Assembly: GCA_026391475.1 (NCBI GenBank)
Contig: JAPLED010000111.1
Coordinates: 1-59,072, forward strand
Reading direction: 5' to 3'
Origin: Bacteroidia bacterium
Lineage (GTDB): Bacteria > Bacteroidota > Bacteroidia > Bacteroidales > VadinHA17
Length of the DNA stretch: 59,072 nt
Of this stretch, positions 57,164-59,072 are shown one piece after another. The notes below the pieces were generated by a model that did no database searches, was not told the origin of the DNA, and saw nothing but the letters and a program-made list of their open reading frames with translations. The first letter of the stretch is position 1. Every line of letters begins with the position of its first letter. The translations under genes were made by a program, and so were the position numbers.

Positions 57164-58447
<1,284 letters not shown>

Positions 58448-58541
58448 TCTTAAATTACCCATCCAGTCTCACTTTCCGACGTTATTAACAAATGTTGATA
58501 ACTTATGTTAAAATCGGGTTTATAACAACGACGATAATTTT

Positions 58542-58572
58542 ATTGTTTTTCAATTTTCTTAGTATAAATTTG
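58542..58572 (+). promoter_or_regulatory. Consensus promoter of the structured RNA gene
   Basis: ATTG (58542-58545), 19 nt, then TAAATTTG (58565-58572), an exact TAnnTTTG. Transcription is expected to start near 58580, just before the first hairpin. Confidence 0.75.
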
Positions 58573-58579
58573 ATTCATC

Positions 58580-59072
58580 AGGTGAGCGATAAAAGACTGC
58601 TCAAAAGATGTGGAAACGGAAAAGGTTACTTAAATGAAGCAAGATCCGTTTCGGTCAGACCCTCGGGTCTGCGCATCAGGCGAGCCGAAACCTGGACTAA
58701 AAGGACTTCGCGTCCCGGATGTTCAGTAAGTCAACGAAAACCGGAAACGTTCTTTCAGCGATTGAGTCACAGGGCTTCAGAATATGAAGGGCTTCGGCCC
58801 CGGGTTAACTGAAACTGATGTCATATCCTTCGGGAAATGTGCAACAGAGCCTGAAAGACAATTCGTCCCGGAAGTCCGCCTTAAAACGGACAAAAGGACA
58901 GCCGGAAGGTTCTGCTGTAACAGGCAAAACCCGAAAGCCATGGGTTGCATAAACAGATCTTGTATCCGATTAAGCAGCCGGTCAGAATAACAGTAATCTG
59001 ACATCGTTAGCAGCCTCGGCTGAAAACGATGAGTGGGAACTAATCCTAGCGAATAGTTCCCATTATTGTTTT
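58580..59072 (+). ncRNA. Large structured non-coding RNA, family not recognised
   Basis: About 490 nt with its own promoter and terminator. No frame gives a believable protein. Helices seen by eye: 58583-58587/58599-58603; 58613-58620/58645-58652 (8 bp); 58656-58661/58666-58671 (CUCG loop); 58703-58706/58712-58715; long-range 58721-58727/58808-58815; 58775-58779/58785-58789; 58789-58792/58797-58800 (UUCG); 58822-58828/58833-58839 (UUCG, one mismatch); 58874-58878/58887-58891 inside 58865-58868/58896-58899; 58928-58932/58942-58946; 58981-58986/58997-59002; 59002-59008/59025-59031 with inner CAGC/GCTG. It lacks the GAGGAAAGUCC of RNase P, a tRNA-like end (tmRNA) and SRP signatures. It may belong to a described class that I cannot name. 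Confidence 0.7.
59034..59072 (+). terminator. Terminator of the structured RNA
   Basis: TGGGAACTA (59034-59042) pairs perfectly with TAGTTCCCA (59054-59062), with an 11-nt loop, followed by TTATTGTTTT up to the window end. Confidence 0.8.

Follow-up and report, generated by a model that had tools for sequence, protein, structure and literature searches.

The window, i.e., the whole stretch of 59,072 nt analysed here, is the entire contig C76 of a 2.8-Mb draft genome, and the edge of the window is the contig end. Near this edge the enolase gene (eno, 57170–58447, + strand) is followed directly by a predicted RNA gene on the + strand (58576–59072). The predicted transcript is ~495 nt long and its start is placed a few nt past the −7 promoter element. 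The region 58541–59072 displays a Bacteroidota promoter, then ~495 nt of structured non-coding sequence and then a terminator. The conserved locus begins at ~58482, upstream of the start given in an earlier note on this DNA, and boxes that resemble protein-binding sites are found there. The RNA is assigned to the + strand because of its G-U pairs and the order of promoter and terminator. Conservation from promoter to terminator is found in 48 full-length copies of the RNA from the same genus.

The promoter (58543–58572, + strand) is of the sigma-ABfr type, with TTG at 58543–58545, a 19-nt spacer and TAAATTTG at 58565–58572. In the available text of PMC7366714 the Bacteroidota consensus is TAnnTTTG at −7 and TTTG near −33. 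The intrinsic terminator (59032–59072, + strand) consists of a hairpin, UGGGAACUA/UAGUUCCCA, followed by UUAUUGUUUU, and is cut by the contig end. The hairpin at 59032–59064 (helix 21 of the consensus structure, 99.8% of its cells paired) and the T-rich tail are near-invariant in the 48 copies. The terminator is absent from the output of a simple terminator scan, perhaps because its loop exceeds the limit of that tool.

Fold of the RNA within the genus

A BLASTN search with 58540–59072 found the locus in 53 of 58 genomes of the same genus, the window's own included. Four of the other five genomes have no match, and G031 displays a 24-nt match in an unrelated sequence. Forty-eight of the 53 loci were kept in alignment A1 (L019, L021, L053, L054 and L055 were dropped as cut, N-gapped or shorter), with a mean pairwise identity of 76% and a minimum of 65%. 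The consensus structure of these copies has 104 pairs in 21 helices, and several unpaired stretches are also conserved within the genus. Folding of the window's single sequence gives a minimum free energy of −162.5 kcal/mol (z = −3.94), and none of 100 shuffles was as stable.

In the 104-pair structure 97.5% of cells pair and 50 pairs show two-sided changes that keep the pair. Shuffled controls have means of 91.5% paired (sd 0.2) and 24.1 two-sided pairs, with none of 500 shuffles as high, and related sequences may exceed such a control even without structure. Two-sided cells number 308, versus a shuffled mean of 85. Slid-register controls, with 26–46% of cells paired, flatter the structure, since it was derived from the same sequences that were counted. 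The tests of P1 and P2 between lineages, described below, are independent of this genus structure. A protein-coding reading of the region was rejected: of the 226 pairwise indels only 8 have a length divisible by 3, and every frame is interrupted in at least one relative. The aligned sequences indicate strong selection on the structure of the RNA.

Much of what the earlier note had proposed for this locus is borne out. It had read an exact Bacteroidetes promoter at 58542–58572 and an intrinsic terminator, and both are present as described above. The non-coding character that it had assigned to the region agrees with the indel pattern and the stops. At least twelve separate helices had been counted, and the consensus has 21. 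The two cUUCGg hexamers are located at 58792 and 58828 and the two CUCG loops at 58661 and 59014, and the long-range helix is P1 (58578–58583 with 58996–59001), unbroken in all 48 sequences. The checks on homologues and covariation that it had suggested also came out in favour of an RNA gene: homologues are found by BLASTN in the genus, with relatives in further families, and covariation is seen both in the two-sided pairs of the genus and in P1 and P2 over 133 loci.

Relatives and the conserved core

Outside the genus, the BLASTN search gave short 5′-end matches in two other families, where shorter relatives with both ends are found. A first covariance model, built on the 3′ 126 positions, was used with strict filters and matched 89 of 393 genomes of the order, in 50 of 204 genera. 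Among the 100 listed places 87 were examined; three of the same genus and ten that were mostly weak or second copies were left out. A 5′ motif, which lies outside the 3′ model, is found 196–563 nt upstream on the same strand at 71 of the 87 loci, and at none of 284 control windows on the opposite strand. The strict motif pair is missing in 16 of the 87. On a looser look at loci without the strict pair, L084, L113, L114, L117, L135, L153 and L156, and further L161, L180, L186 and L195, resemble divergent members. L186 (family f119) displays a divergent 5′ motif with an insertion (TCAGCAGTTGAGAGATAAAAAGGTC) near position 1213 on the minus strand; L184, L185, L187 and L188 are matches from the same family, and the RNA family may extend past the strict motif. 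Four loci of family f6 (L130, L142, L147 and L162) match model R1 without either core motif and are perhaps another element with a hairpin terminator.

A second covariance model matched 49 of 396 genomes sampled from the class and 11 of 394 sampled from the phylum, which are partly the same genomes. Both ends of the RNA are present in 19 of the 34 loci from these searches (own included), which adds several families outside the order and within the class; the pair is not found in L194 and L197, the two loci outside the class. No match was detected under the strict filters in 304 of 393 genomes of the order and 347 of 396 of the class, and thus the RNA is not universal.

In a reverse test, GTDB r220 genome contigs were scanned with a pattern that covers the promoter and the 5′ motif alone. 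This gave at least 119 stretches, from which 80 loci with 81 pattern matches were taken. The 3′ motif is present with 74 of the 81, with all six P1 pairs formed in 70 and five of six in 4. The remaining seven comprise six matches at locus edges and L269, apparently the N-gapped copy of L021. By their titles the 80 loci belong to Bacteroidota groups, except for L210 and L219, which come from MAGs titled Chlorobiota and are apparently genomes of the window's family and order. Carriers include the cultured genera Draconibacterium, Maribellus, Tangfeifania, Mariniradius and Aquiflexum.

Selection of a locus started from one of its ends, and the other end had to be present as well (at most 4 and at most 3 substitutions). 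The more independent tests are the pairing of P1 and P2 across the two ends, and the counts of promoters and boxes in RNAs found by their 3′ end.

The plan common to the family is a core of two short helices, which flank an internal loop (GAGNGAUAAAA / ANAAUAACNGUA) and close a lineage-variable domain. The 5′ strand of P1 (UCAGGU, 58578–58583, + strand) pairs with its 3′ strand (AUCUGA, 58996–59001, + strand). Over the 133 loci, 781 of 798 cells of the six P1 pairs are paired (shuffle maximum 741), and the sixth pair forms in 120 loci. Covariation is seen as C-G, U-A and U-G at pair 1 and as A-U or G-C at pair 4. The internal loop has a 5′ strand at 58584–58594 (GAGCGAUAAAA; GAGNGAUAAAA in the family) and a 3′ strand at 58984–58995 (AGAAUAACAGUA; ANAAUAACNGUA in the family), both on the + strand. 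The two strands together have 23 positions, of which 19 reach at least 93% identity across the 133 loci, which were chosen using motifs from that same loop. P2 (consensus helix 2) pairs 58595–58598 with 58980–58983 on the + strand. Pairs 1–3 of this helix are present in 126, 125 and 129 of the 133 loci; the fourth and fifth (88 and 70 loci) are not general. The second pair is GC in 52 loci, GU in 40 and AU in 33.

P2 encloses the lineage-variable domain (58599–58979, + strand), which has 17 helices in the window's genus (consensus helices 3–19). The distance between the 5′ and 3′ motifs ranges from 196 to 563 nt over the 133 loci. Downstream of P1 is a 3′ hairpin with a CUCG loop (59002–59031, + strand; helix 20), in which 6 of 11 pairs show two-sided changes; the loop is UUCG or UACG in many relatives. 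Three small groups were folded separately, and P1, the loop, the 3′ hairpin and the terminator are common to them; the interior is not.

The promoter is also conserved between lineages. A −7 element, TAnnTTTG/A, is found 13–14 nt ahead of P1 in 131 of the 133 loci, part of which were selected with TTTG in the search pattern. The upstream TTG accompanies it in 124, with a distance of 19–21 nt in 121 of these. In shuffled sequences the −7 element occurs in 5.7% and both elements in 1.2%. Among 71 distinct RNAs found by their 3′ end, 70 have the −7 element, 68 have both promoter elements and 68 have the boxes. The window displays all parts of the working definition of the family: P1, P2, GAGNGAUAAAA / ANAAUAACNGUA, and a −7 promoter element 13–14 nt before P1.

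The four-box array and the genomic setting

Upstream of the promoter are four 9-bp boxes (58482–58525, + strand), 17–61 bp ahead of the −33 TTG. Box 1 is TTATTAACA (58482–58490) and box 2, which is inverted, is TGTTGATAA (58493–58501). Boxes 3 and 4 are degenerate (TGTTAAAAT at 58506–58514 and GGTTTATAA at 58517–58525). In 81 loci aligned on the palindrome, the layout is the palindrome gTTATtAACAATTGTTaATAAC, then tGTtnATa and then tGTgnATa, with fixed spacing, and the offset from array to P1 is 91–93 nt in 78 of them. The box 9-mer (TTATNAACA/TGTTNATAA) occurs in 119 of the 130 windows taken upstream of the RNA, compared with 60 of 2589 control windows. The window's own genome has a single such palindrome at up to one mismatch.

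The boxes are weakly predicted to be DnaA boxes, from their resemblance to these. They are mostly TTATTAACA and not TTATCCACA; the TTATNCACA type is found in 16 of the 130 windows, and Cyclobacteriaceae loci have boxes of this type in the same upstream region. The surroundings of dnaA in ten genomes displayed no cluster of three boxes, and two close boxes (80 bp apart) in L366 only. The position of the array upstream of the RNA promoter is fixed in most loci of several lineages, and the array is a possible site of replication- or growth-linked control.

The usual order in the window's genus is eno, RNA, ubiD, and thus a UbiD-family gene is likely to be next beyond the window. Within the genus, 45 of the 53 loci have the enolase gene upstream in the same orientation. 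Among the 133 loci, Eno is upstream in 17 and UbiD adjoins the RNA in 21 (22 UbiD proteins). These loci mostly have the RNA length of the genus and belong to the window's genus, with a few of unknown genus. Neighbours in other lineages include SRAP (12), DnaG (11), Rel/SpoT (7), fucosidase and others, the family names being based on one representative protein per family. No constant protein partner across lineages is found in the neighbour genes of the 133 loci.

Two copies of the RNA are present in eight genomes (G064, G095, G128, G177, G225, G307, G410 and Aquiflexum); in G177 and G410 one of the two was recognised by the looser look only. Varying neighbours and two-copy genomes together favour a trans-acting product, and disfavour both a cis-regulator and a cassette that encodes a protein of its own. 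Paired copies ~0.7–2 kb apart on the same strand are found at L058 (G095), L106 (G128), L086/L123 (G307) and L251 (Aquiflexum gelatinilyticum).

It had been suggested that the RNA could belong to a mobile system, with the protein encoded past the contig edge. The data do not support this, as the next gene in relatives is a UbiD-family decarboxylase (21 loci) and other lineages have other neighbours. A BLASTN search of phages and plasmids with the window's RNA, which would detect close relatives only, gave no match, and the promoter plus 5′ motif pattern found nothing in IMG/VR.

Possible role and comparison with known RNAs

Rfam 15 gave no match in the window at the gathering score, and at a relaxed threshold two chance-level matches, both outside the RNA. 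The loci of 13 relatives gave two tRNAs only, both in L217 outside the RNA, and three members scanned at relaxed settings yielded only weak matches, well short of the cut-off. OLE, GOLLD and ROOL, which we take to be included in Rfam 15, were compared as Rfam matches only and have none in the window or its relatives. RNase P RNA (RF00010) and tmRNA (RF00023) were rejected as identities, since both are found elsewhere in the genome above cut-off: the single RNase P match is at G000:C131 (230 bits), and tmRNA is at G000:C2 (126.7 bits), with none on C76 among the 10 matches listed. The 6S models RF00013 and RF01685 have no match at the RNA locus. Sub-cutoff 6S-Flavo matches (cut-off 85) at G1163:C15:495517–495655 (43.6 bits) and G1164:C7:1240651–1240783 (37.4 bits) are possible divergent 6S RNAs. 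The portions of the literature that were searched have no description of the RNA; a 2017 catalogue, which reportedly holds 224 candidate RNAs, was outside that search, so that a prior description is possible. The earlier statements that this is a structured RNA of no known class, and neither RNase P RNA nor tmRNA, thus agree with the Rfam results, the many homologues and the strong covariation.

The conserved sequence shows a free-standing unit with its own promoter and terminator, the transcription of which is predicted. Its RNA would be closed on itself by P1, followed by the short P2, with a loop of nearly fixed strands, GAGNGAUAAAA and ANAAUAACNGUA, between them. The large domain into which P2 opens would be well ordered in each lineage and rebuilt between lineages. 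A small fixed core with a variable periphery is also found in RNase P and SRP RNA, and this likeness suggests a trans-acting ribonucleoprotein. A conserved protein or ligand may bind at the core loop, and the periphery may serve as a scaffold; no protein partner is visible in the synteny. From the fixed position of the array, a protein that binds the four boxes could control transcription. Because the boxes resemble DnaA boxes, replication or growth state comes as a first guess, and RNA synthesis might be coupled to either.

From these sequence features, the locus probably encodes a new free-standing, trans-acting large structured ncRNA of the class Bacteroidia that is likely to be an RNP scaffold, with transcription, regulator and function all predicted. 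A more specific form, in which the RNA is a class-wide housekeeping RNP RNA whose synthesis is tied to replication via DnaA at the four-box array, is doubtful; if true, it would be a large RNA machine made in step with the cell cycle.

Other roles should also be considered. A functional counterpart of 6S or Ms1, with a P1/P2 loop that either mimics an open promoter or is a binding site for RNA polymerase, and with an array that acts as a growth-phase switch, would account for the terminal stem that closes the RNA and for the conserved internal loop, but is improbable. A core loop without likeness to a promoter and a large variable domain set the new RNA apart from 6S RNA. The RNA also has no Rfam 6S match, so that the earlier suggestion of a 6S-like RNA gains no positive support, with room left for a functional analogy. 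In the available text of PMC9130861, Ms1, a relative of 6S, binds the RNA polymerase core, which would fit such a role. RF00013 was found in none of 15 genomes, 13 of them carriers; however, this absence is uninformative, since the model also misses the Bacteroides control genome, and a 6S RNA has been detected in Bacteroides (available text of PMC7366714). RF01685, for which there was no positive control genome, gave candidates below its cut-off at other places in 2 of 13 carriers. A regulatory RNA whose exposed conserved loops pair with mRNAs, protected by the folded body, would fit a standalone gene with promoter and terminator and the unpaired stretches conserved within the genus. It is nevertheless unlikely: a closed core surrounds the nearly fixed loop strands, and the three folded groups have no interior in common, in contrast to what a fixed seed region would give.

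A ribozyme or ligand-sensing RNA centred on the P1/P2 internal loop is very unlikely. The near identity of that loop amid variable surroundings would be expected of such a centre, in loci that were chosen by loop motifs, but the RNA has no tie to one downstream gene, stops at its own terminator and has neighbours that vary by lineage. Hardly credible is a chromosomal origin or DnaA-titration locus with a secondary transcript. The four DnaA-like boxes at a fixed place, and the TTATNCACA-type boxes of Cyclobacteriaceae loci, would suit it, and so would a local sign change of the 2-kb skew, which is seen in G1162 close to the RNA. However, the skew has the same sign tens of kb on either side of the RNA in both G1162 (a noisy profile of 20 windows that covers 400 kb of 2.94 Mb) and G011 (contig C7, 20 windows, 400 of 809 kb), so that an origin at the RNA, although suggested by the boxes, is unsupported by the sampled GC skew. 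Two copies in some genomes and the strong selection on RNA structure also argue against it. The trans-acting ribonucleoprotein RNA is retained as the favoured reading.

To our knowledge, few large structured bacterial RNAs are kept across much of a class. Several of the best-known large structured bacterial RNAs run basic cell machinery. The RNA family described here matches no catalogued family that was searched and may be an unrecognised RNA machine. Its presence in cultured genera makes its function directly testable, and covariance models from the conserved core would annotate the family in many genomes.

GOLLD and ROOL, which like the new RNA are large and ornate, are often tied to phages and plasmids, whereas the searches of phages, plasmids and IMG/VR described above gave no match to the new RNA. 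In the available text of PMC12286853, one region of GOLLD is conserved and another less so, a split similar to that seen here. The same text gives 577 nt for the OLE RNA studied by cryo-EM and describes its function as poorly understood; the new RNA resembles OLE in size and in its elaborate conserved fold, and differs in that no Rfam similarity is found. Bacteroidales-1, Bacteroides-1, Flavo-1 and others are candidate RNAs of Bacteroidota from 2010 (PMC2864571, Table 1, as available), and none has an Rfam match to the window or its relatives. Bacteroides-2 and GUCCY-hairpin have no Rfam number in that table and fall outside the Rfam comparison. With 6S, 6S-Flavo and Ms1 the new RNA shares a terminal stem, a conserved internal loop and a standalone gene, and it differs from them in matching no such family, in its long variable domain and in a loop where no promoter-like bubble is recognised. 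RNase P RNA and tmRNA, both separately present in the genome, have a conserved core with variable peripheral domains, and this is the architecture that the new RNA also displays.
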